Source of the DNA: Paralichthys olivaceus
Taxonomy: Eukaryota; Chordata; Actinopteri; Pleuronectiformes; Paralichthyidae
Assembly (NCBI RefSeq): GCF_024713975.1
Contig: NC_091098.1
Span: 16,512,316-16,576,315, forward strand
Length of the DNA: 64,000 bases
Direction: 5' to 3'
The translations under genes were made by a program, and so were the position numbers. Every line of letters starts with the position of its first letter. Within the stretch, counting starts at the first letter, position 1. This document shows, piece after piece, positions 5,103 through 57,864 of the stretch. The notes beneath the pieces are model-generated. The model ran no database searches. It had not been told where the DNA came from and saw only the letters and a program-made list of their open reading frames with translations.

Positions 5103-6696
5103 ATGCCTGAGCATGTGTGAGTGATCTGCCTTTGTGTTCTTTTTATAGACCATTTATTCATTCACACATAAAGAATGAAAACAAACTATTTTGACTGTTG
5201 TCTCTAAACTCTTTCTTCCTTGTCCATTCTTCTTAAACAGGCAAGAGGTGAGTCCTGTCTACTGACTATCATAACATTCTCTTATAACCAAAAACGTTTC
5301 ATAAAAGCACTTCACATTATATATATTTTAAGCTGTGTGTGATGTATTAAATCCAAACTGTGTTGATGGTATCCTGTTTCCATCCAGAGGAAACCAAAGA
5401 TCTCAGCTTCAAGGAAGCTGATGCTCAAGGTAAGAGCTCAAGGTTTGATATTTTCTGTAACACATATATTTAACCAGAGGGGAGCAGCAGATTCCATGTC
5501 CTCTGCAGCTGGACCGTCACGTATCTAAAAACAACAGCAAAGAATCCTGTAATACATTATTATATTTCCTGCTGATTCATTTCCCACTCAGAGTTTGATG
5601 GTGGCAAAGGCCAAAGAGGAACTGGAGCAGGAGATCCTTGATAAAGAGGATGAGAAACACAAGTATCTGGTAGAGAGAGCTCCTCCTCTGAACACCAGTG
5701 GTCTGAGCCAGGGACAGCTACAGGTAACTCCTCCTTAACCTCCCACAATTCCCTCATTATTCTATTCAATCACTCATTCGCTCACCTGAAGTCAACAACC
5801 AGTACAAGCACTGCACCACATATGAACAACCAATCAACAAACCTCTATGTATGTGTTTCTAATTCAGCTGTTTCATGGGATTCCAAGTAGAATAGCTTTT
5901 CAGATTCACAAATATGAAGTTGCTCTAGAAATCTGCAAAATCTGTGATTCCCAAAATATAATTCTCTCAGTATTTTTTTTCTTTGGTTGTGTTTTAATCG
6001 TGTATATGTATAGGATCTCTGCAGAGAGCTCCATGCCAAAGTAGATGTGGTGGATGAGGAGCGATATGACATTGAGGCCAAAGTCATGCTCAACACACGG
6101 GAGGTGCGTGAACGGTATCATTTCATTTCTTTAGGATTCAGCAGAATTGCCACAGCGAGACACCAACAGTTTTGTTTTCATCCCTGGCCCAGATTAAAGA
6201 TCTGAACATCAAGGTGTTGGACCTAAGGGGGAAATTTAAGAGGCCCAGTCTTCGGCGTGTTCGTGTGTCTGCTGATGCAATCCTCCGTTCGCTTCTGGGC
6301 TCCAAGCACAAAGTGTCCATGGACCTCCGAGCTAACCTCAAGTCTGTCAAGAAAGAGGACACTGAGAAGGTGTGTGCAGAAGTGAAAACACACACGCACA
6401 CACATGTATACGCACAGAGAACACTGCATGCACCTTCCTCTGGGCAGCTGGGAAGTTTCAGACACACACACACAACACGAAGAACACCACCTGAAATGTG
6501 TTTTTATGTGTGTGTGAAAGGTGTGTTAGAGATACTGAACACTAGGCCAATGCAGGGCGGTGACTGTGTGTGTGTGTGTGTGTATGTGTGTGTTTGTAAG
6601 GAAGTACACAAAACAATGATACCATTGTACAAGAAGAGTAGCTTTTGTGACCGTTTCTGCTCACTGGTCAGCGTGTTTTTATTATATGTGCAGATT

Positions 6697-6740
<44 letters not shown>

Positions 6741-7005
6741 TGTGCGTGTGTGTGTGTGTGTGTGTGGAGCTGGAAACCGGTTATTCAAGTACAGATATGC
6801 AGTGTTCTCATGGGGAATTCCCAGGTGACAACATTGGTCTTTACCTCAAGAACTTTCTCATTCTTTCACACCATCTCTCACTCCATCTATCTATCTGCAG
6901 AAGAGGCCGGTAGAAGACAGTGACTGGAGGAAGAATGTGGAAGCCATGTCAGGGATGGAGGGAAGGAAAAAGATGTTCGATGCTGCAAAAGGTCCTGCCC
7001 AGTGA
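5103..7005 (+). CDS. tnni1: Troponin I, slow skeletal type (complete, 7 coding exons, 188 aa)
   Basis: Troponin I is the inhibitory subunit of the troponin complex on the sarcomeric thin filament; it blocks actomyosin until calcium binds troponin C. Coding exons: 5103-5116, 5241-5247, 5388-5429, 5592-5723, 6014-6103, 6193-6369, 6901-7005. All join in frame at GT-AG sites. The protein opens [17 protein letters not shown] and contains the inhibitory peptide [13 protein letters not shown] (about residues 108-120), the switch segment [15 protein letters not shown], and the C-terminal [20 protein letters not shown]. The 188 aa length matches the vertebrate slow isoform (187 aa), and there is no cardiac-type N-terminal extension. 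TNNI1-like features are [10 protein letters not shown] before the last exon, RPVE...DWRKN, and position beside lad1 and tnnt2. A fast (tnni2) assignment is less likely on both sequence and synteny. The ATG lies 18 nt into exon 2. Confidence 0.93.
5241..5247 (+). other. tnni1: 7-nt coding microexon of tnni1
   Basis: The exon GCAAGAG is bounded by an acceptor ending TTAAACAG and a donor GTGAGT. It joins CATGT at 5116 to AGGAAACC at 5388, giving the frame M-P-E-H-V-Q-E-R-K-P-K. Skipping it would shift the frame, and the joined product matches the family N terminus. Troponin I genes are known to have very short 5' coding exons. Confidence 0.88.
6563..6766 (+). repeat. TG microsatellites in the last intron of tnni1
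   Basis: Two (TG)n tracts lie in the intron before the final tnni1 exon: a short one near 6565-6595 and a longer interrupted one near 6698-6766. They generate long but meaningless Cys-Val reading frames. A similar but more interrupted tract lies at 4993-5052 in the first tnni1 intron. Confidence 0.9.
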
Positions 7006-20039: not shown

Positions 20040-23000
20040 GTTTGTACAGCTATCTTAACTATCTTATCGGCATAATGCATTCCCCAGCCCCTTACCCTAA
20101 CCATCCAAACTAAATGCCTAACCCTAACCCTTAACCTAAACTTAATTCTAACCCTAACCCCAAAACCTATTCTTGACCCCCAAACAGTGCATTAAATGGG
20201 GGGTCACAAAGTGACGATTGGCTCAAATGTTCTCACTCCATTGGTTAAAGGCTAAAACTGGTCCTCAGAAAGATAGCTGTACAAACACACACTCTTCATA
20301 TATCATATTTCTTCAAAGGTTCTTCAGGTAATCCAGTGATAATTATATTAATAACTATCATGCAGATATGACGGTGGTATCAATCTTCTTATCTACCATT
20401 TAACCCTCGACTGACTGACAACTATAAATTCAACCCCCCTGTCAATGTAACCCTGGCCTTAGGATGAACCCCTGCAAATTAATATATAACTTTTCCATTA
20501 TGAGTCCTCAGTGTTTGGAAATGCCATTAGAATATAAATGGGTTATACTCATACATTTGCAAATAAATAAAGATAAATTGATAATAAATCAATAAATATG
20601 TGGGATGTTAAAACCTAAGATTGCTTATAATCATCACCATTTAATAGTAACATCTATACAAGCAAAGTGTCGAACAACATATAGACATAAAAAAATGCTT
20701 CTGGGCATTTGCTACATGTACAGACAAAGACGTGCACGCTAACGCTAAAGGGATGTTTGTTTTGCATATTGCATATTTGCTGATGCTGCTGCTTTATTTT
20801 TTCCTCATTTGATGTCGCATTGACATTGTCTTTTTAAATTGCTTTTCAAGCCAGTTTCTTTCTTACTTACTCTTCGTTACTTTTACTTATTTGTCACTCT
20901 CTATCTTGTTCCCTCATCTCCAGGCCTTTCATGATGCCAAACCTCATCCCTCCTAAGATCCCAGATGGGGAGAAAGTGGATTTCGACGTGAGTGACTGGG
21001 AATCAACACAGTCAATCATACAGAACAAAATTTGCGTATAAGTTTCTGTCTCAAGGTATATTATGTAACATCAGTCCATACCAGGCTGGGGTAGATCTGT
21101 CTAATGGCCTTCTTTATATTATCTGATGTACTTTTTTACTGAATCAGACCGATAGGAAATACAGTATCCTGTCTTTTTGAAATGTAGAAAACAATGAAAT
21201 AAAGGCCCAAATCTCTTTTTCTGAAGGATATACATCGTAAAAGGATGGAAAAGGACCTGATGGAGCTTCAAACTTTGATCGAGGTTCACTTTGAGAGCAG
21301 AAAGAAGGAGGAAGATGAGCTCATTCATCTCAAGGAGAGGATTGTGAGTGCCCTGTGCTCTAATCGATCTCCTGCAAACTGATTCACATATACATAAAGC
21401 TAAATCTCTGTTTCAACATGGTGTGTAGGAAAAGCGCCGCTCTGAGAGAGCAGAGCAGCATAGAATCCGCAGCGAGCGAGAGAAAGAGCGACAGAAGCGT
21501 CTTGAGGTACAGTCCTGTTCCAGCTGCTTTAATATAAAACTACAGCTGCCTGGGTTTATTTATTCTCTCTCAATCCATGTTTTCCAGGATGAGAGAACTC
21601 GTAAAGAGGAGGAGGAGGCCAAGAAGAGAGCAGAGGACGATGCCAAGAAGAAGAAAACCCTCACCAGCCTCCACTTTGGAGGGTACATGCAGAAGTTGGT
21701 GAGCAAATGGGTGATTTATTGTGGCATTTCCAAGAAGTTAAAGTAGTAAATGTGAGGAATGTAGACTAGAGCCTTGAATTATTTCACTTTCCCACAGACA
21801 GAGAAACGGAGCGGCAAGAGGCAAACTGAGAGAGAGAAGAAGAAGAAGATCCTAAGTGACAGGCGCAAATCTCTAGACATCGAGAACTTCAGCCAGGATA
21901 AACTCAAGTATGAGCAGAATATGTGGATTTCGTTATGTTTGTATGGGACAGTCTTTATGATACACAACAGGAAATGGAAATGATAATAAATGACAACTCA
22001 TTTGTCTCTGTCTCACAGGGACAAGGCCAATGAGCTGTGGGAGTGGATGTATCAGCTGGAGGGAGAGAAGTTCGACCTGCAGTATCAGTTAGGCAGTCAG
22101 AAATATGAGGTGTGTGTATGCAGAGGTTTTACAACACACATCCTTGATGTATTAATGTCTTAATGTAGCATCATTACGGTGACATTGGTGTGTTGTCTTT
22201 GTTCCAGATTAACGTGCTGAGGAACCGTGTCAGCGATCATCAGAAAATGTGAGAATGAACTCCAAATCATTTCACGCCACTCTCACATATTGTTTACCAA
22301 ACTTCCTGTCCCTTGAAAGGAATTTAACTGTCCTGGAGGGGAATTCTCTCCTGAACCAGAATGTTGTGAGCATGACCTATATTTCTGTAGAACTCCTGTG
22401 TCATCCACTAGCTGCATTCCCTTTTAGCCATTTAGCCCTAAATACCAGAAACTCCATTACCACCTTTCAAGTCAAACAGCCTCAGAGAAAAAGAGAAAAC
22501 CCAGTTTGTTAACTTCCTTCATTGGTGTTTGCATAACCTAACGTTTTTAAAAGAATCCCCTGATTATTGAATTGTGTGTTTTTTTCAGGTTAGAGTTGAC
22601 ACAAAGATGGTGAATATTTTGTGAAGTTTGTACCTTGCTCTGAATCCTGACTGACAATTTTTGCAAAAACGCCATTTAGTGTTCAAACACAGGGTTACTC
22701 AATGTTTTAAATCACGATGAAAAGGTAAGTGAGTTCCATAGAGTTACAACATTTAAGTTGTAAAGAAGCTTAAACTTTGTGAGTCATTTTTCATCCAAAT
22801 GGTTGTGTAAAACAAAGACAATCGAGCGCACTGTAAAAATCCATAACACAACCATATACTCACAACACACCTAAAAACTTAACACAACCAAATATTCAAC
22901 ACAACCAAATATTCACAACCAAATACAGCACAAGCAAATACACAAATACTCACAATACAACTAAAGTGTTTCCAGGGAACACTCAAAAGTGATGAAGACA

Positions 23001-31600: not shown

Positions 31601-34600
31601 ACCTTACTTCCCTTTATTATTATTATTCCAATTCCTTGTTACTCAATTTTAGTTTTCTCTTTTGCAAGTAACATGTACATCTGGGAAGAGAAGGATGAGT
31701 AGAATATATTTTATATACTTTTTCTGTGTACTCTGTATGATAAATTCATCCTTAACATAATGCAAACCAAGTTTGTGCATGTATATTATGTATATATTTG
31801 CCCTGGTGACCTGGTCTGTCCTATTATTTTATACTATATATATATACACATTCTATAAAAAGGCATCGTGTTGTAAAGCACATATTACTGCTCAGTGTAT
31901 GTGAGATTTTCTCCTCTCAGTTTGGGGATAGGGCATCTTTGACGTCCTACCTGTGATTTGTTTCTGAGTCTCAGTAGAATCTGTCTCCTTCAGTAGCTGC
32001 AGGGCCTTGCCTATACCACCACAGTGTTGAACCTCCAGCTTGTTGCTCTGATCCTTAAACACCAGGTTCCTCAGGGCAGCAGCAGCAGCCTGGCTCACCC
32101 CAGGGTTGGGGCTCCGCAGCAGGGTCACGAGAAGAGGGATACCCCCTAGTTGGAAAACCTGCAACACAGAAACGAGGAGGGGATGGATGAGGCGTGGCGT
32201 CAACAACAGTGAAAGTTACAAACTGAACTAATAAATTGCTTTCTCCGCCCTTTCCCTCAAGGCAGTTCACAAAAATGTCCTCACTTAGCACTCCTCTGTT
32301 TGTATCTCTACAGTCATCTATAAGACAACCTTCACACTAAACATTATTGACGTGTTTAAAGGACGTGTTTAAAGGACGCGTTTAAAGGACGCGTCTGAGG
32401 TGTTTATAGTATATTTGTGCACAGACCTGCTGTTTGGCATGCTCCTCTTTGAAGGCGGCGTGTTGGATGAAGGTGGCTCCGCACATCTGGAAATTCTCTT
32501 CAGGGTGAGACAGATACTCTACAGCCTCCTTCAGGGTCAGCTCTGATAAGTTAATCCCACTGTTCACACTGGAGAAACAGAAATTACATATTTAATTGAA
32601 TTTAATCGTAAGTTTGGTAAACAAAATGGATTTAAAGGAGACATATTACTTCCCTTTCATCTAGTGTATTAGAGGCTCTTTGTGAATGTAAAAACAGTCA
32701 CAAAGTGACAGAGAGAGCTCCTCTTCCCGACAGTTTCTATTTCGACTCTGCTCCTGAAAAGACTCATCAGCATTTTGGCCAATACTACCCCACATTTGCA
32801 TAATGCATGCAGAGTGGCTTGCCTGGCACACCCCCTAACAAAGCCAGTTAAAGTGAGAGCGGAGCCAAACATTTCCTATGCGCGCTGGAAGTGGTTGACC
32901 AATCACAACACAGTGGGCCAGCTAGCAAATCAGAGCTGCAGCAGTGGACAGTATGAGGAAAGGAATGCATTTTCTGAACATGAGAGCGTGTAAGACAACC
33001 CGAACTAAAATCGAAAACTTGAATATGAGCAGAATATGTATCCTTTAAGTTAAAGTAGGACACATTTTTCAATATATGTACAAGACTGCTGGTTGCAGCG
33101 TTCTTTGTGAAACTGTAAAAGTGACCTGCAGTAATTGAGCCATGGCAAGTGAAGACTGGCTGCAGGACTCAGACCACAGAATCCTGAAGCTGCACCACCA
33201 CTGCTGCACAAAGAGCTACTCACCTGTTTATTCAAAGTTGAGTGAAGCTCGACTCAGTACACAGACCCCGAAACTGGAGAATCCATTACTCTTGTTATAA
33301 ATGCACTGGTTGTCTGTTTATTCAAAGTTGATTGATATTGAACGCATCACTTGTCTAAGTCGCACTAAATTTGACATTGCACTTTCTTTGCTACATTGAA
33401 AAACATGGAAGTACTAAATAAAGATCGGTGCAAAATCTCGCAAAAGTATTTTTTTTTCTACCCCCAATACTTTTTTATCTCCTTGTCCCTTCCCGGGCTC
33501 CATTCTTAACAATACACATTCCAAGTGTGAAGCCGATAAGATGAACAGTCCCCAAGATATATGTTCAACAGACAGATTTGAAAACAAGGTACAAGGGGGG
33601 TGAGCTCACGCTGACTGCTGTAGATCCATCCTGGATGCTTTCATGGTTCCCATCTTGCCCTCAGTGTGGGAAGAGGGTTGCTGGACAATGCGTGCCTGGC
33701 TGTTAGTCATCTGAGTGCCGTTGGTCATGGAGTAGGTGCTGTGTCTATTGTATTGATTATGGATGGAGTGCTGGCTCAGGCCTGTCTGCCCCTTTGCTCT
33801 CTGAATAAAGAGCAATTCACATAATGATTAGCTGGTACCATGGAATAATTGTAGTTTTTTTGCTTACATTATGTTTTTTTTTTAGGGGCTTCAGTGAGAT
33901 TGTGGGTTTAAAGAATGAGAACAACTGCTCACCATGACAGGTGCAGGTGCAGCAGAAAATTGAGGAACCAAGGAGGGGTCACTGTGACTGGTTTTCAGCC
34001 CACCGGCACCCCAGCTGGAGCCTCTAATATGCTGTTCCCATCCGCTAGAGGTGCTTTGATATCTTCCTCTTGTGATTTTAGTGGACAGGGAGCGACTCTT
34101 CTGATAGTTCATCTAAAGAGAAAGACAGTGAGGTTCAGAGTAGATCACATGAAACGTTTCACTCAAAGTTCTCCAGAGAATGAGACACAGACCTTTATTG
34201 AAAAATACACATAGAAAAATATCCACCTGGACCGGTCGTGGAAAACTGAAACTTAGATTAGGCGTCACTGCTAAAATACAGCTTTACCCTGAGGCTTCTC
34301 TCTGGCAACAGTCCAGGTCAAGAAGAAAGAAGGTAACCCACTTCTTATGAGAACAGATTTCAAAAACACCCCCTGTTAAGCAAGATGGAGGAATCTGACC
34401 TGAAACAAAGCCTGCATTCCTCGTTTTTCCCTCTTTCCTTTCCCCCCCTCTCACTCATTGAGTGTAGCAGAATGCACCGAACAATCGCACAAACCAAGGT
34501 AACATTATCCGTCACTGGAGACTCACTCACGCTGTGTGTGTTATGAGACTGCTGGCACTGTTGGGCACTTTCTCACAGAGAAGCTTTGTCTGTTCAAGTC

Positions 34601-48552: not shown

Positions 48553-51500
48553 CTAGTCGTTAACTAGTCTATAAACATGGTACTGCGCTCCATGTTCACT
48601 GGTGGACACTTCAAACACAAAAGCGATGCACAGCAGAGTCTCCTGTGTTTCTCTGTTGGACACCACCTAGCAAGAGACAAGAAAAGAGGAAGATATTTTG
48701 AGAGGGTCAGGATATAACAGTAAATAATATGGGAAAAGACAGCAGTCAAGAAATAGAGATGAAGAAAATGACAGAATTAACAGAACTAAGAGGAGAGGTA
48801 TTAACATCTGGAGAGCCTGTGCAGTGATAACTTTCAGCAAAACATTGGGGAAAAACTTGTGATAAAATCACAGAGCAGTAGAAACCTTCTCTAGAAACCT
48901 TTCTCTAGAACAATATTGAATATAATCTCTGCTGATCAAGAATGGGTAAGCAATGTTTTCAAGACCTCACAATAAGAGGTACAGAGACAAAAGAGTGAAA
49001 GAGAAGTTCTTGCATGAAAGAGAGAGAACTGCACTGCAAAACACTGGTGGGTACGTGCACAACTGTGGCTGAAACTACAAGGTCCGACTGAGTGGAAGTT
49101 AAAAACGTTATGGAAAAAAGCGCACGGTAGCGCATTAGCATGAGTTAGCACATGGCAAAAAGAGGTACACACAACTGTACAATGCAGCAATGAAGAAAAC
49201 ACAGCCAGGTTAGTTTTTATGTGATTATGAGAGGTATTAAACAATTTTCGGTTCGTTATGAAACTGTGGCAGAACTAATTAGAATATGGTGGCCGGCTAC
49301 AGTATAGATTATTAAGGGAAAACACTGTTCTCTACAGTAAAGTTAACTCAGCTTAAAACGGTTACACACACACCTGTAGGATGGTGAAGTTCTCCAGTAC
49401 ACTGTTCATCATGTATTTCTCCGGCAGGTGTTTGAGTTTATGGATGAAGTTGATCATGTATTCACACATGGGCGACCGATGGATGCGGAACACGTACTTT
49501 CCTCCTTCCAGATGTGCATATTCCGTCTGAACAGAAGAGGAACCCACGCAACATGCATCACGATTAGAAACACCTTTTCATACCGTTCGATATATTAAAC
49601 ACTGGGTTTATTCACATACTGGGCTGATTTTCTCACCTCAACCTTCTCCACCACCTGTTTACCAAAGGAGCAGACCTTTGTCGAGACGCTGATAGTGATG
49701 TTTTCTGTTCCACTGTACTGACTGCTCACACCGTAGAAGGCACTAGAACCCTCCTCAATGTCACTGCTCAGGTCCGCCTGGAAAAATCCGAAGTGTGAGT
49801 GTGAAAAAGAGTAGAGGAAAGTCAGAAAGTCACCCATTTATGAGTGTATTCCTTCTGTGAGAGACAGCCTCTTGATATATGAAATATGAGACAGTCAATA
49901 AAATACTTATAGGTTATTTCCTGTGATTGCTGTCTCCTCTATTAAAGGTGTGTAGAATTTTGTGACAAGTTATTGTCAAACTTGCACTATTCCCCAATGA
50001 TTCCCTGCCTTGTGGTAATTTGACTGAATTCCTTGTCTCAAACATGAATCTCAAAATTCCAGATTATTAACCAAAATCTTGTCATCTCAAAAGGCACCTC
50101 TAGTTTTATGTACTGACCCAGAACTTGACGAGGAAGAACGCATTGTGCGGCCCTTTTTCATACAGCTCCTTTAGACCGCCCTTCTTCTCAGAGAACTTGT
50201 CATAAATCTGCCTCACATCTATGGACTCCAAAACAGGGTCATTGTAGCTCGGGTTCGATGGGCCAATGTGCACGAAAAGGTGTTTATACTGTTGGAAGAA
50301 AGAGATGAAAAGGGGGGGGAAAGGTTGGAGGATTTTTTTTGTTTTTGTTGGATACATTAAAAAACGTCTGGATGTCCGTACCGCCTCTCTGTCTCTCTGT
50401 GTCTCCATAAAAGCAGAGAACTCCAGTAGCCGTAGTTTTGCAGAGGCGATGGTTCTGTCTTGCCATACAGGCGCTGCTATAGCTGCAGGGCGATGGGGCG
50501 GTAGGGGCTCATAACCTTGAACCAAGAAAAAACTGTTAACAAAACAATTATCACGATGATTAATCAAATCAGTCAGTTTGTGTCCACACTTACTGATAGG
50601 AGCAGGGGCTGGTAGTGTAGTGTATGGCGGCTGTGCAAAGGGCTTAATGCTGTTAAATAGAAAAACCAGATGAGTGGGGAATCAAAAATGTGTAACTTCA
50701 CCCAATTATTAATTGCACTTTCTCCAATTTAAACAAAAAAACCCAACTAATCTGCCAGTGATACTTACTCCTGAGAATGTCCAGGCTGTCCTGGCATAGG
50801 GCCGGGCCAAAACTACACAAAGGAAAGAAGGGAAACGGGGCAGATAGTATTACTCAGACTTTCAACCAGAAAATAAAAAAGAACAGATGTGTGTGGGTCT
50901 GTGTGTGTCTCACTCTGACTGGTGGAGGGAAGGGAGTCTGGGGTTTCATTACACTCGCAGACACAATCTGAGCTGATGAGAGGTTGGCTACTGTCTGCAG
51001 AGCCTTGTCTTTGGATACCTGGTCCTGAACATGAAAACAACAAAGTGACACACAATGAAAAATTCTCCTTCTTTCAAAATGCTGGTCATTACAGTCAGCG
51101 TAACTTAAAAGTCCACTTTAGACAACAAGCCAGCCAACTTACTTCAACATGATGCAGTAATGAGGGGAGACAGGACAGAGTGCAAAGCAGATATAGGGGG
51201 GGATGCCAAAGCAGGAGGGGCACCACACTAGCAGGCTAGAAGAGCTAACTGGAGCCATCACCAGTATTGAACTAAAGCCACTAAAAACAAGAGTAATGAG
51301 AGTTTTGAGCCTGGCAGAAGAACTGCACTGTGTAGACAAGCGGTAATGTAATGCCAACCACGAAGCACAAAGCCTGAAGGAAAAAACTGGAGTTGTATGA
51401 CCAAAACTTACCAAGTTCATGGCCTATGGCAAAAAAGACACGATATCAATTAACTTCAGTACATTCAATATGAAAGCAGGTCACAGAATCACTGTTAGGG

Positions 51501-54500
51501 CAATGAGGGAAAACACCTTGCTCACTACATACAAATCTTTATTACAAGCCTACCTCACCCCACATTCTAAGCTTTAAGCTAACATTCATCTTACATTGAA
51601 AGCACACGCTATGTCCTACTAACCTGTGCTGATATTTACACCAGGAAACATACTGACCTAAATGTGTATTAAAGTACAGCAAATGAAATCACAAAGAGGG
51701 GATGATAAAACCACAGGAAGAGTGCTATGACAGGAAAGACAAAGAACGGACGGAAATGTTCAGGAGTGAGAACATGGAGATCAGAAATGTTTCAAAGGAG
51801 AAATTCTGCAAGTCTGAACGCATGCAAGGGGCGCAATAAAAACTCCCTGTGTGTATGCAGGTCTCTGTGTGTCTTACTAGATGCCATGTACATGCTAAGA
51901 ACAACCATGCCACTTAAGCTACTGATCTCATGCAATTATCTGTCAAAGGTCAAACCTCTAACAATGTACTCAACTCAACCTCATTGCCATGCAAAAAATA
52001 AAGTAAAACCCTCGTTTCTACACTCAGCAACAACAAACAACTGTCTAATATGGACGTGAAGCAGTGAATGAGACCTTTAAAGCATAAAAGCAACCCAATA
52101 AAATATCTGACGATATGAGTTTGCAAAGACTGAGCCACACCATATTCCCACACCCACTAAACAGAACATTCTTAATGATATGATCAACTACCAAACTATT
52201 CAGAAATTAAATTCTTTCTCTTCTCCGTCAAGGTGTTCAAGTTGCTCTGGCTTGAAGCGTTTTCACACCTGAAGTCTGGTCCAAAGTTCATGTCTTTGTG
52301 ACATTGATTACTTTTGATCTAGCTTTGGTTTGATGTTGCAATTTATGGAGCGCACTCAAGACACCACTTCTTGGTCGGACTAAATTTCGGTCTGTTGTTC
52401 TGGACTGTGGTCTGGGGAATATTTCACTTCTCAAATCTGCTCAATCCCTTCTCTGGTGCTTATAATAATTGTATATTTAAATGTATTTATATTTATACTT
52501 GCACAAACACACCACAGGAAATTCCTTGTATGTGTAAACCTACTTGGCAATAAACCCTGATTCTGATATTTTGGTGTTGATTGTAGTCTAGAGTTTATTA
52601 AAATGATGAGATCTAATTTGAAAGGTTGACAGGATTGAAATAACTGAATTCAATAATTGATTTGAATAAAAAAATATTATGTATTCAACATGTCATCGTA
52701 ACATGTATTATCATGTAAATTTGTACATATATTCATTACAATATATAGTAATTACCAAAAATGTGTGAAAATGTGGGAGAAAATGGTAAAACCAATCTTA
52801 TTTTACAGGAGACAACTCAACTATGACAAAGCATCCAAGGTACGTACTGTAACACCCTAACAGAGAAGCATAAACCTACTGCCTCATTGGGTTAGGTTGG
52901 ATTTGGGCCACATGCAGAGTAAAGCAGAGGCAGTAAGCATGTGTACCTTCAGCTTAGACTGAATCTCGCGAGACTTTCTCTTGGCCAAGACTTGCAGGTG
53001 ACTAGAGACCTGAAGAAACACAGGATGAAGGAAAAGGGGGAAAGGAAAAGAGGAGCGGATGTGACTACAGAGGGAGGGGAGAACTGTTTCAGCGGGCACC
53101 CACCTTGATGCTCGCCTGGTATTCTCGTACCCTCTTGCGTGCCAGAACCTGAATGTGACTAGACACCTAAAGTGAACCCCATGAAAACATACATTCAAAG
53201 GGTGATTTCTGCAATTTTAAACAATCACGGTCTATAAATTATCTATCTATTAAAACATTGTGAAAGTATGCTGGAACCAGCAAATCATATTACATCAGAT
53301 AACATGTAAATACTCATGTCTTAATAACACCTGTGCGTACCTGTTTGCGCGTGCGTGTCTTCCCTGTTCGTAGCTTAATATAACGAGCGATTAGCTCATT
53401 TCGACCTAGAATGGAGAAACAAAAAGATAAAATCAGACAGGAACATGTAAATACACATGGTTTAGCTAAAAAACAAATGTGCTTAGCTATGATGACGGAG
53501 AGTAAGACAAGCTGGAGCTGGTACAAGCTGTTACATTTGGTCATTCTGAGTCAAATTATCAGACCTTTGTTTCGCACTGTCACAGATCTTAATGAAATTT
53601 TGGCATGTTAATTTGGTCAGAAACTCACGGAACCAAAATGTCATGATGCTCAGCTCCTCACTCAGGGAAATATAGTGAAGATTGAACTTTTTAAAGGGAC
53701 TCTGTCAGGTTGTCCCTTAAGGTCCAGTGTGTAAGCTTTAGGTGAAAGGGATCTATTGGCAGAAATGTAGTGGATGAATAACCCTCATGCTGTTTTCACG
53801 AGTTTGTTTCATCTAAATTGTATGAATTGTAGTTTTCTTTACCCCAGAAAAGGCCCTTTATATTCAAATACTTTATATTTACATCGAGGGGACCCTTTCT
53901 ACGGAGGCCGCCATGTTTTTTACATTAGTCCAGACTGGACAAACTAAACACCTTTTGAGTTTTTATGACAACTGAAGGCTTCAACAGCTTCTTTTTATGT
54001 TTGGAAGGGGATATAGGTGAGGGGTGTTCAGCTGCAACATGCAATTTCAACAGTAGATATCACACAATTCCACACACCTTTAATAGAGGAGACAGATAAT
54101 TGGTTCTCGTATAATTTCAAAGCTCTTTTCCAGCTCCGGGTTTGTCTAAACAGAATGTTATCCCCAGTAAGAAATAACAGCATTATGAGTGATTAAAACA
54201 AGTATTCCATTCTAGCCTCATCAACAGAAAAATAGTAAAAATCATGATGAGCCATAATGTTGGACCCAGTGATGCTTGCTGCTGATGTATGACAGTGTTC
54301 ATATATCCAGAGCTGATCAAATAAATATCCAAAGGTACCACCTTAGATTTATTTTCTGTGGCACATTCACAAAACAGGCCTGCATGCTTTTAATTATACC
54401 ACACTCATACAACTACTGGTGCAACCAAGCTCCTCTAAACTGCATCGAAGACAAGAATGAGCTCCAATTCATTAACATTAATCCAAACTTAATCAGAGCT

Positions 54501-57500
54501 AGATCTCAATGTTACAACGCAGCAAACAACACACTACTGAGATCATGACTCCATCATGTTTTTCAGCCTCGGACACAGTGACACAGGATTGTCAATGTAT
54601 GTTTAGGTTGGACTGAATTCACAGTTTATTTGGTATGAGGTTTTAGCTTTTGTGTTTATTTACAGTCAGATTTGGTCTTGCCTGCTGGCAGAGCTTCTTA
54701 GCAGATGGCCAAATAATGGAAACGGATGGGAAAAAAGAGAGAGAGGTTATCATAGTCAAGAGACGCCCAAAATGTGGTCACTAATAACTGCCAGCTCAGT
54801 TCTTTCGTTCTCTGCCTCCCCCTGCTCCAACCCACACCTAACGATTGACTTGTCTCTGATTATAATTCACTCAGTTCACCCTTCTGCAGAGGCCAGAAAA
54901 GCATCAAGTTTAAGGTAAAGGCGATTAAATGATTCCACTGTTGCAATCATCTAATCACATACACACACGGTTATCATCATCTACATCACCAGCCTTCTTT
55001 CTGGGAAGTGGTGTGATGCTGTTGGGACTTAGGTCACATCAGGCTGAGTCACTTCAGCTCCATGAAGTTACCAGAAGACAGAATTCCATAAAATCTACAA
55101 AAAAGGGGCTGAGTCAGACACAGCATTCTGCTCCGATTCCCAAAACAGGACACATGCAGTTTCCTGCAGTCTATCACTACTCCACATAAGGCCAAATGCT
55201 TTTTCATCAGACCTAGCTGCATGCCCCTTATTAAATAATTTACACTTCTACATGACAACACGGAGGTTGGAGGTCAGAAAACATTGTATTACGGTATGTG
55301 GATTCCAAATCATATAATTTATCCCTGTTTCAAACCCTCTTCTGCTATATAAATTAGTTTTCTTGTTGAAAGTACAGATGACATTTTAGACCCCCCACCA
55401 CCAAAAAATAAAAAATAAAATAATAAATAAAAAAGAAAGACAGTGGAAAATACAGAGTGGGCTAGTGGGCCAACAAAACTTCATAATTTTCTTCCTTTAG
55501 TCATTATTAGGTTATGAAGTTATGTCTCCATCTCATTTGTTTTATTTAGTTAGCAAGAAATGCAAAAACTACAGGATGGATTATGACAAAACTTAGTGGA
55601 GGTATGCAGTGTGGGTCAGGGAGGGTTGTATCAGTAGTTGTATGACTCAACTACCAGTGGTGAATGGAGAATACTTAAGCTGTTTTCAGACATGACCAGA
55701 GAATAGGATCTGGACTTTCTCCAGAGTTTTACTTTCACACACAAGCAAAGCAGGAGAAGACGGGCAACATATCCTCTGGAGGCTTCATGTGAGGGTGGTG
55801 CAGCAGGTAGGGGCAGCACGTAACGTATACATTCTGTTGCAGAGATCACGTTTGTCCGGTGAAAGACAGCAGAAACTCTGGAGGCTCTCACTCTGACATT
55901 TGCCTTCACACATACACTGTCTCTGGAGTTCAGTGGATGTCTGAAAGCAGCTTTACTGTCAGTAACAGCTCAACCTTGTTGTCGGTTAAAGCAAATCAAT
56001 CCCTTCTCTTACTTTTAATTGCCATAATTCTTGTTTGTATTTCCTGTAGCTAAGCATTCAACAGTACACAATCTGCTTCCTGTTTACACCAGCATACACA
56101 AAGGAAAACATGAGTATGGGTGTAGCCACAGAGACATTTGATTACCATTCAGTCTCTCATTCGCACCCATGGGCAACCATGCAAACCCCAGACAGAGAAC
56201 CTTCTTGCTGTGAGGCAACAGTGTGTTAACCACTACCAGGGTTATTCAGAGTTTCTCACAATATGCTAAGGAGCTGTGTGTGGGTAGTGGTGGTCAAACA
56301 AACTGGTTTGAAAATGGGAGACCAGTGGGTGCTTGGGTTAGACCTGTCTCTGGAGTCTGTTTTACCAGTGTGACATGGTGTTCAGGCACACACCAATTAC
56401 ATAATTTGCCCACTGGCCCCACTATCCATTTCAGTTTCTATAGACATAAAACCAATTTGGTAGATTTTTGTGCATCGGTGGTAACATCAGATTATCATAC
56501 ACTTTCTATCAATACTTGGATGCTACATTTAGAGACTGATAGTGTTCCCTTAATGTAGCAGCAGAGAATGTCCACATCGTGTCATACCTAGCATGGGTAT
56601 TACGTTCTAGGTGTCCGTGTAGCTTTACAATGTGTGAAAACGTGTCCCAGCAGGACTTTCCTTGTTTGCTGAAGGGGAAGTGGGGGTGGTCAATACAGTG
56701 AGCCCACATTTCCACAAAAGGAGAAAATGCCGCTATGCTGAAACAAACTTTCCCCTTCTGTCGCATGGGATCACATATCCTGTTCCCCCTCACAACAGAC
56801 ATACGCATACACAAATGCATAACACAGACTGCTGCAGGCGTGAATGCCAACTCTCAGCCCAAAAAATAAAAATGCTGGGAATGTTGGGTGTTCGCCAAGG
56901 TCTCCCATAAAGTAGGAAGAAATGGTCAAAATACATCAGTGCTCCACTAGCCTTCAGCCTCCAGAACAGATTCTACAAGACACAAACAAAACTCACACTA
57001 CATGTGTGCATGCACCACATGGTATGTAGTCAGTAAGTAATTAGTGCCCTGTGGGAATGAGCAATCAGGGAACTTCTGCATATGTTGATCCTAACCTGAC
57101 CTGAAATGTCAATCGGCTTTGTCCTTTGACCTCTGTCCCTGCTGAATGCACTTTAACCTCATAATGCCCTCTCCCAAAATTCCTGCAAGCACAACACCTG
57201 GGTAAAAATAAGTCTTTACAAGAAGAATCAATAAACCACTAGCTTCCAAAGTGCACATAGCAGATTCAGTCCCGGCTGTCAATCATGATGTTTCACCCCG
57301 TTTTCATAGCATCACATAACCAATCCAGTCCAAGGTGTAAACAGGGTTTGTTTACCATAGTAAATGCCTTTACACTTTGTAGATGCCATACAAAGCTAGA
57401 TTCCTGATAAAACTGCTGAAATGGTGAATGTTTACTGAAAATCAAATGTCTGAGACCATAAACGTAAGGTAAGAAAGTGTTTTCCGCCTAAGTGGAAGCT

Positions 57501-57864
57501 AGGCACCATTTTTCTACACAGAAGAATGTGCAGTACAATAGTTTATTTTTTGCAAACTGAGCAGTGAATTATTTGGGATATTCTGCTCCTTATGGTTAAT
57601 AGGATGACAACTTGTGTGTTAGGACAGAAATGTGTTGTAGTCCTCACCATACATCTTTCCCTCATCTGACAGTATGATCTTCCTCCTTCCGCAGGGAGGG
57701 TAGATGGCCAGAGCTTCCTGAAAGCTCTGCTCGATGTCTGGACTCCACACTCCCTCAGGGTCGCCGTCCAATCCACGGTCTGCCCCATCTGCCAGTCCTT
57801 CTCCATCGGCACCCTCCTCCTGCGCCCCGTCAGGGCTGCCACGGCAACTCCACTCCGACGCAAT
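48553..57864 (-). CDS. tead3: TEA-domain transcription factor 3 (12 coding exons plus one alternative exon; 426 aa)
   Basis: TEAD proteins bind MCAT sites (GGAATG) and recruit YAP/TAZ or VGLL co-factors in the Hippo pathway. Exons: 57648-57864, 53341-53405, then 53104-53166 or 52947-53009, 51412-51423, 50914-51024, 50769-50812, 50594-50649, 50382-50515, 50118-50288, 49637-49777, 49374-49526, 48553-48666. All junctions are in frame. The TEA domain (from about residue 38) has [20 protein letters not shown] and [20 protein letters not shown]. The YAP-binding domain has [65 protein letters not shown] and [20 protein letters not shown], with the family's palmitoylated cysteine. TEAD3-specific marks are the AMNL microexon, LYEKGP and REYQ. 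No in-frame AUG precedes the TEA domain, so the start is taken as ATT at 57862-57864. Human TEAD3 is 435 aa. Confidence 0.94.
51412..51423 (-). other. tead3: 12-nt microexon of tead3 (residues AMNL)
   Basis: GCCATGAACTTG is flanked by acceptor TTTGCCATAG and a strong donor GTAAGT. It encodes Ala-Met-Asn-Leu between the TEA domain and [10 protein letters not shown]. Mammalian TEAD3 has AMNL at this place, and TEAD1 has the optional VTSM. Being 12 nt and phase 0, it can be skipped without frame loss. Confidence 0.9.
52947..53009 (-). other. tead3: tead3 alternative exon 4b (TEAD1/4-like recognition helix)
   Basis: A second 63-nt, phase-0 exon, only 94 bp after exon 4a, with acceptor TTTCTTCAG and donor GTACAC. 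It encodes [17 protein letters not shown] and four more residues. It keeps the SSHxQ DNA-reading residues but has 9 of 21 residues changed from 4a. Its tail (KSREIQ then SKLK) resembles TEAD1/TEAD4 more than TEAD3. The reading frame is open and both splice sites are intact, so it looks functional. Confidence 0.85.
53104..53166 (-). other. tead3: tead3 alternative exon 4a (TEAD3-type recognition helix)
   Basis: A 63-nt, phase-0 exon with acceptor CACTTTAG and donor GTGGGT. It encodes [17 protein letters not shown] and four more residues, closest to the TEAD3 version of the third helix of the TEA domain and its following basic stretch. It lies 174 bp after exon 3. Confidence 0.88.
53716..54083 (+). 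mobile_element. MITE family member 3 (AAAGGTnCAGTGTGTA ends), longest copy
   Basis: The copy opens CTTAAGGTCCAGTGTGTAAG and closes CCACACACCTTTAA. The interior includes GTTTCATCTAAATTGTATGA, CTACGGAGGCCGCCATGTTT and CCTTTTGAGTTTTTATGACA. At 368 bp it is the longest of the three copies. It lies in the tead3 intron between exons 2 and 3. A short end fragment (AAAGGTGTGTAGAATTTTGT) is also present near 49945. Confidence 0.82.

Follow-up and report, generated by a model that had tools for sequence, protein, structure and literature searches.

Does a fish tead3 gene carry two alternative exons for the DNA-recognition helix of its TEA domain, and would they be used one at a time? In the Hippo pathway, TEADs form the DNA-binding end. 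The initial annotation of the window, i.e. the whole stretch of 64,000 nt from Paralichthys olivaceus analysed here, had assigned the gene to tead3. Matches to its exons, from the N-terminal to the last one, extend over 48556..57861 on the minus strand (tblastn, human TEAD3 query). The joined YAP-binding domain ranked TEF-5/TEAD3 first, and the best seven of the 43 listed chains from solved structures are TEF-5. By this similarity, the window gene is tead3. The N-terminal exon has no ATG between the in-frame stop and ASEWS, and an ATT occupies the expected start (57862-57864, minus strand). The start regions of two further TEAD genes of this genome read GCCGCCACC-ATT-GCG (tead3 on contig C2) and AAG-ATT-GAT (tead1 on C1). 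TEAD1 and TEAD3 are known for non-AUG starts, and this property seems to be kept in this fish.

Of the 50 stop-free frames with at least 100 amino acids in the window, 30 were scanned with Pfam. Upstream of tead3, two troponin gene segments on the plus strand match Pfam Troponin (6112-6825, E 2.6e-21, and 21429-21743, E 1.1e-5). A segment of an Arm-repeat gene on the minus strand matches Armadillo repeats (31895-32215, E 9.2e-16). Neither a tRNA scan nor an Rfam search at gathering scores yielded a match.

Exon 4a (53104..53166) and exon 4b (52947..53009), both on the minus strand, are each 63 nt long, open, and in phase 0, and the intron between them has 94 nt (53010..53103, minus strand). 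They each encode an alternative version of a 21-residue segment from the recognition helix and its extension, and are identical at 12 of 21 residues and at 36 of 63 bases; this re-reading of the sequence agrees with the annotated pair. The upstream partner is constant, i.e. exon 3 (53341..53405, minus strand, 65 nt), a TEA-domain match that ends with ...RTRKQ in phase 0. The downstream partner, also constant, is the 12-nt microexon AMNL (51412..51423, minus strand), which follows 1.5 kb after 4b. The splice borders are ...cactttag/gtgggt for 4a and ...tttcttcag/gtacac for 4b. Both exons had been credited with good splice sites. All of these are usable, but they are not equally strong: the donor scores are 9.8 for 4a versus 4.0 for 4b (values from an approximate matrix), while the acceptor tracts contain 58% versus 93% pyrimidines, so that donor and acceptor strengths are opposed. 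The two are thus adjacent homologous exons that agree in length and phase and have usable splice sites, as is characteristic of tandem duplicates.

The complete assembly (588 Mb, 25 contigs) was searched for further copies. The Pfam TEA model has 10 exon matches, which fall in pairs into five TEAD genes. For naming these genes, a ranking against solved structures was preferred over a summed tblastn score against human TEADs. The latter was crude and omitted matches beginning before residue 112; for some genes its label was weak or conflicting, as for the second tead1 (TEAD4 254, TEAD3 249, TEAD1 218) and for tead1 on C1, with equal values of 162 for TEAD1 and TEAD4. Three of the five genes contain both 4a and 4b, open and in phase. 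These are the window gene, a second tead3 on C2 (TEAD3 by structure ranking), with 149 nt between the exons, and tead1 on C1 (TEAD1 by structure ranking, 89 residues compared), with 90 nt between them. Exon order and short spacing are common to all three. The second tead1 and tead4, both on C7, have a single exon of the 4b type only, and no relic of 4a was seen in either of them (tblastn to E 5). A genome-wide search with 4a (E up to 1) led to seven places, every one of them an exon-4 copy of the five TEAD genes; the window's own 4b was below this cut-off. The arrangement had been described as a feature of tead3: it is present there, but it is not confined to tead3.

The AMNL microexon is identical in the second tead3 and has a VTSM counterpart in tead1 on C1. 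The latter gene, at C1:18.4 Mb, keeps 4a, 4b, and the VTSM microexon, while neither 4a nor the microexon was found by the same searches in tead1 at C7:2.25 Mb or in tead4 on C7, the microexon pattern being a narrow one.

We estimate a probability of about 70% that 4a and 4b are included alternatively and in a largely mutually exclusive manner, giving two TEA domains. Judged from the sequence, alternative use of the two exons is very likely, and mutual exclusion is likely. Exon 3 would be followed by either 4a or 4b, the AMNL microexon would come next, and one gene would yield two TEA domains, mostly the one or the other. Compared with 4b, exon 4a combines a stronger donor with a poorer acceptor tract in each of the two tead3 genes (approximate matrices). 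The choice would be set by these opposed strengths, i.e. a strong donor and a weak acceptor tract of 4a and the reverse for 4b. The short intron between the exons would help to set it, and regulators, for which PTB or RBFOX are guesses, would act on it.

Reading frame is no barrier to co-inclusion or double skipping, as the exon lengths are multiples of three and all four combinations stay in frame. This is compatible with an alternative in which both exons are real but one is spliced as a cassette exon, so that transcripts carrying the two in tandem, or lacking the two, are normal products. A protein without either exon would have lost the recognition helix and the nuclear localization signal, and could act as a dominant-negative form. 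Introns of 90-149 nt are also not too short in themselves to permit joining. Two recognition helices in tandem would, however, be expected to disturb the domain, and the position of the branch point bears on the same question. In the alpha-tropomyosin gene, the adjacent homologous exons 2 and 3 are kept apart by a branch point that is too near the upstream donor and by a long pyrimidine tract. The geometry is a good fit to this system in tead1 on C1 only, where no A occurs ahead of the final CAG in the 38 nt that precede the 4b acceptor, so that the branch point must lie at most 51 nt from the 4a donor. This is near the donor-to-branch-point limit below which splicing fails, and it disfavours joining. 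In the two tead3 genes, the distances are ambiguous. The intron of the window gene has a long pyrimidine tract and two candidates: the only full match to yUnAy lies 78 nt from the 4a donor and would permit joining of 4a to 4b, while a poorer match at 42 nt would block it. The second tead3 has candidates at 36 and 62 nt. An EMT study reports, in its available portion, a skipped-exon event in human TEAD1 that is annotated as an internal repeat lying downstream of the TEA domain (PMC3158048); this could be an exon tandem, in line with cassette use, or something else, and it may or may not be the same matter as 4a/4b. Taken as a whole, we regard cassette use as unlikely, and prefer largely exclusive inclusion.

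Several further candidate features of the switch were inspected. Exclusion by RNA structure was rejected, as no notable fold was present (z 0.11). The AG-free tracts before 4b have 53, 106, and 36 nt, compared with 19-117 nt in other TEAD introns (17 usable of 29 rows; the 12 rows left out had tracts of at most 5 nt from a misplaced AG). A long AG-free tract was therefore dropped as a special mark of the pair, since other introns of the same genes are equal. UGCAUG, an RBFOX-type motif, is located 31 nt downstream of 4b in the window gene (52911..52916, minus strand), where any role would be a guess. It also follows 4b in the second tead3 (at +189 and +353), and is absent within 600 nt downstream of 4b in tead1 on C1. 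Further copies precede 4a in the second tead3 as well as the exon of tead4, and none was found in the 300 nt after the AMNL microexon of the window. Because this distribution is not common to all genes with the pair, no common regulator is claimed.

Conversely, one of the two exons might be a conserved-looking relic that is now unused, tead3 in practice using only the other. The loss of 4a from the second tead1 and from tead4 would fit such a scenario, as would the weak donor of 4b in the window gene. The substitution pattern argues against it. The two tead3 genes differ by only two amino acids in 4a and by one in 4b, while synonymous sites are saturated; the respective pN/pS values are 0.04/0.83 for 4a and 0.05/0.70 for 4b. 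Both copies are open with splice sites, and both are conserved as coding sequence across three of the five TEAD genes of this genome, with low pN versus saturated pS. Similarity between the two tead3 genes ends at most 9 nt from the exon borders, and no intron match was reported except for the microexon. Judged by this pattern, 4a and 4b are two coding exons under protein-level constraint, and an unused relic is improbable. The proposal that the recognition helix with its basic extension is encoded by duplicated, alternative exons is supported by the recurrence of the pair and by the separate conservation of each type.

The same exons are informative about the age of the pair. Full-length exon alignments pair like with like, i.e. 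4a with 4a and 4b with 4b, and in the best tree of the eight exons a long branch divides the two types. Five positions (100, 102, 107, 108, and 109) separate all three 4a exons from all five 4b exons, while positions 90-93, 95-98, 103, 104, and 110 are invariant across all copies. It could be argued that tead1 and tead3 acquired their pairs by parallel, independent duplications, as short exons under shared constraint could imitate common descent, and the first 28 nt do match across types (e.g. 96% between 4a of the window gene on C6 and 4b of tead1 on C1). However, the AU test gave p 0.51 for the tree with one duplication, and rejected the trees with separate tead1 and tead3 duplications at p 0.004 and 0.003, on a basis of 63 sites that is good but not overwhelming. 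The separation of the types by the same five positions in every copy, and the agreement of order and short spacing in three genes, also speak against parallel events, which are highly improbable. We favour a single tandem exon duplication that preceded the split of tead1 and tead3. If TEAD1 and TEAD3 arose in the vertebrate genome duplications, the exon duplication would be older than these. The presence of the pair in three of five genes, the AU rejection, and the protein-level constraint indicate that the pair is old and functional, and not a novelty of tead3.

Chance resemblance or an assembly duplicate can be dismissed, nothing having been found in favour of either: the two strands of the window together hold 330 open AG/63 nt/GT-or-GC segments, 4a among them, of which 4b is the most similar to 4a with 12 matches, the runner-up having 6, the maximum per window in 200 block-shuffled windows was 4 to 7 of 21, 27 of 63 bases differ between the exons, which also rules out a recent duplication, and the pair recurs on two other chromosomes, i.e. 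at three loci in all.

The two exons resemble different human paralogs. Exon 4a is identical to human TEAD3 at 18 of 21 residues and contains the TEAD3-type tail of helix 3 (REYQ), as had been annotated. Exon 4b agrees with it at 14 of 22 aligned residues, in an alignment that begins one residue upstream, and lacks this tail. Its own tail had been called TEAD1/4-like, a label that did not hold: it is nearest to TEAD2 and not specifically to TEAD1/4, with 20 of 21 residues identical by eye to human TEAD2.

Which properties of the helix would change? Helix 3 is the DNA-recognition helix and contacts the major groove (PMC12672301, PMC5876656). Its base-reading start, VSSHxQVLA, is common to both exons, and the exon sequences bear out the prediction that SSHxQ stays constant while basic and phosphorylatable residues change. 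Given the invariant SSHxQ, a large change of the target motif is not expected. An exon choice inside a DNA-binding domain is known from exons 18 and 18b of FOXP1, which alter base specificity. The likeness of tead3 4a/4b to this system is the location of the choice within the DNA-binding domain of a transcription factor; the difference is that in tead3 the variation falls on flanking basic and phosphorylatable residues, with the base-reading half unchanged.

Residue 102 is Val in all three 4a exons and Ser in four of the five 4b exons (Ala in tead4), and the Ser102 of 4b is embedded in the basic context KRKS. In human TEAD1, the Ser of RRKS is presumably residue 102, and we take this Ser102 to be the PKA site of TEAD1. 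PKA and PKC phosphorylate TEAD and thereby inhibit DNA binding, and a figure legend in the available part of the source places the sites in the DNA-binding domain (PMC6628201). The exon choice would thus include or omit an off-switch for DNA binding that is under kinase control, with Ser102 in 4b versus Val102 in 4a, and we consider this phospho-switch plausible. The bipartite nuclear localization signal of Scalloped spans the region of this exon, as described in the accessible text (PMC3121794). The basic cluster that completes it differs between 4a and 4b, and both exons rebuild the signal in kind. The choice would re-tune the second half of this signal and the linker, not the core target motif.

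In the literature searched, as far as its text was available, we met no description of a duplicated TEAD helix exon, and a text search for the exon peptide strings had no TEAD paper among the matches listed, as judged by titles or the opening lines of abstracts. The chicken DTEF-1A/B forms (TEAD3) are reportedly a partial precedent, which may or may not concern this exon pair. Several reports, each available in part, concern human TEAD1. Inclusion of its exon 5 is promoted by SRSF1, and its exon 6 has 12 nt, is regulated by RBFOX2, and has no effect on DNA binding (PMC10167241, a review). The AMNL microexon matches exon 6 in position. Upon CMV infection, an intronic region that precedes exon 5 by about 90 bases is included less (PMC12422734). 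The primer on the exon-5 side in that report matches the fish tead1 better in 4b (22 of 23 bases) than in 4a (11), which indicates that human exon 5 is of the 4b type. The place in the TEA domain is the same, and the reported region sits where the fish tead1, with its intron of 90 nt, has 4a; in the available part of the CMV report, it is termed neither an exon nor a duplicate of exon 5. By analogy, we infer that human TEAD1 may retain 4a upstream of exon 5.

These comparisons lead to a wider proposal, which we hold tentatively and with somewhat less than even confidence. The TEAD ancestor before the genome duplications would have had a two-exon switch, with a phospho-regulated helix from 4b (Ser102) and one not so regulated from 4a (Val102). 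This switch would persist in fish tead3 and one tead1, while the human paralogs would largely have frozen one state, i.e. 4a in TEAD3, 4b in TEAD2 and TEAD4, and 4b in TEAD1, where a 4a upstream of exon 5 would have drawn little notice; the human states are assigned from the human protein sequences and one partly available paper. If this is true, the differences between TEAD paralogs are partly partitioned splice isoforms. The pair offers a testable account of paralog differences in helix 3, and it points to a region of human TEAD1 that, in the available text, is reported as used but not named an exon. If the switch is true, “TEAD3” or “TEAD1” as studied in cells is a mixture, and the response to PKA and PKC as well as nuclear import could be set by splicing. 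The point is an evolutionary one for the whole family, and the pair is therefore more than a curiosity of a single gene.
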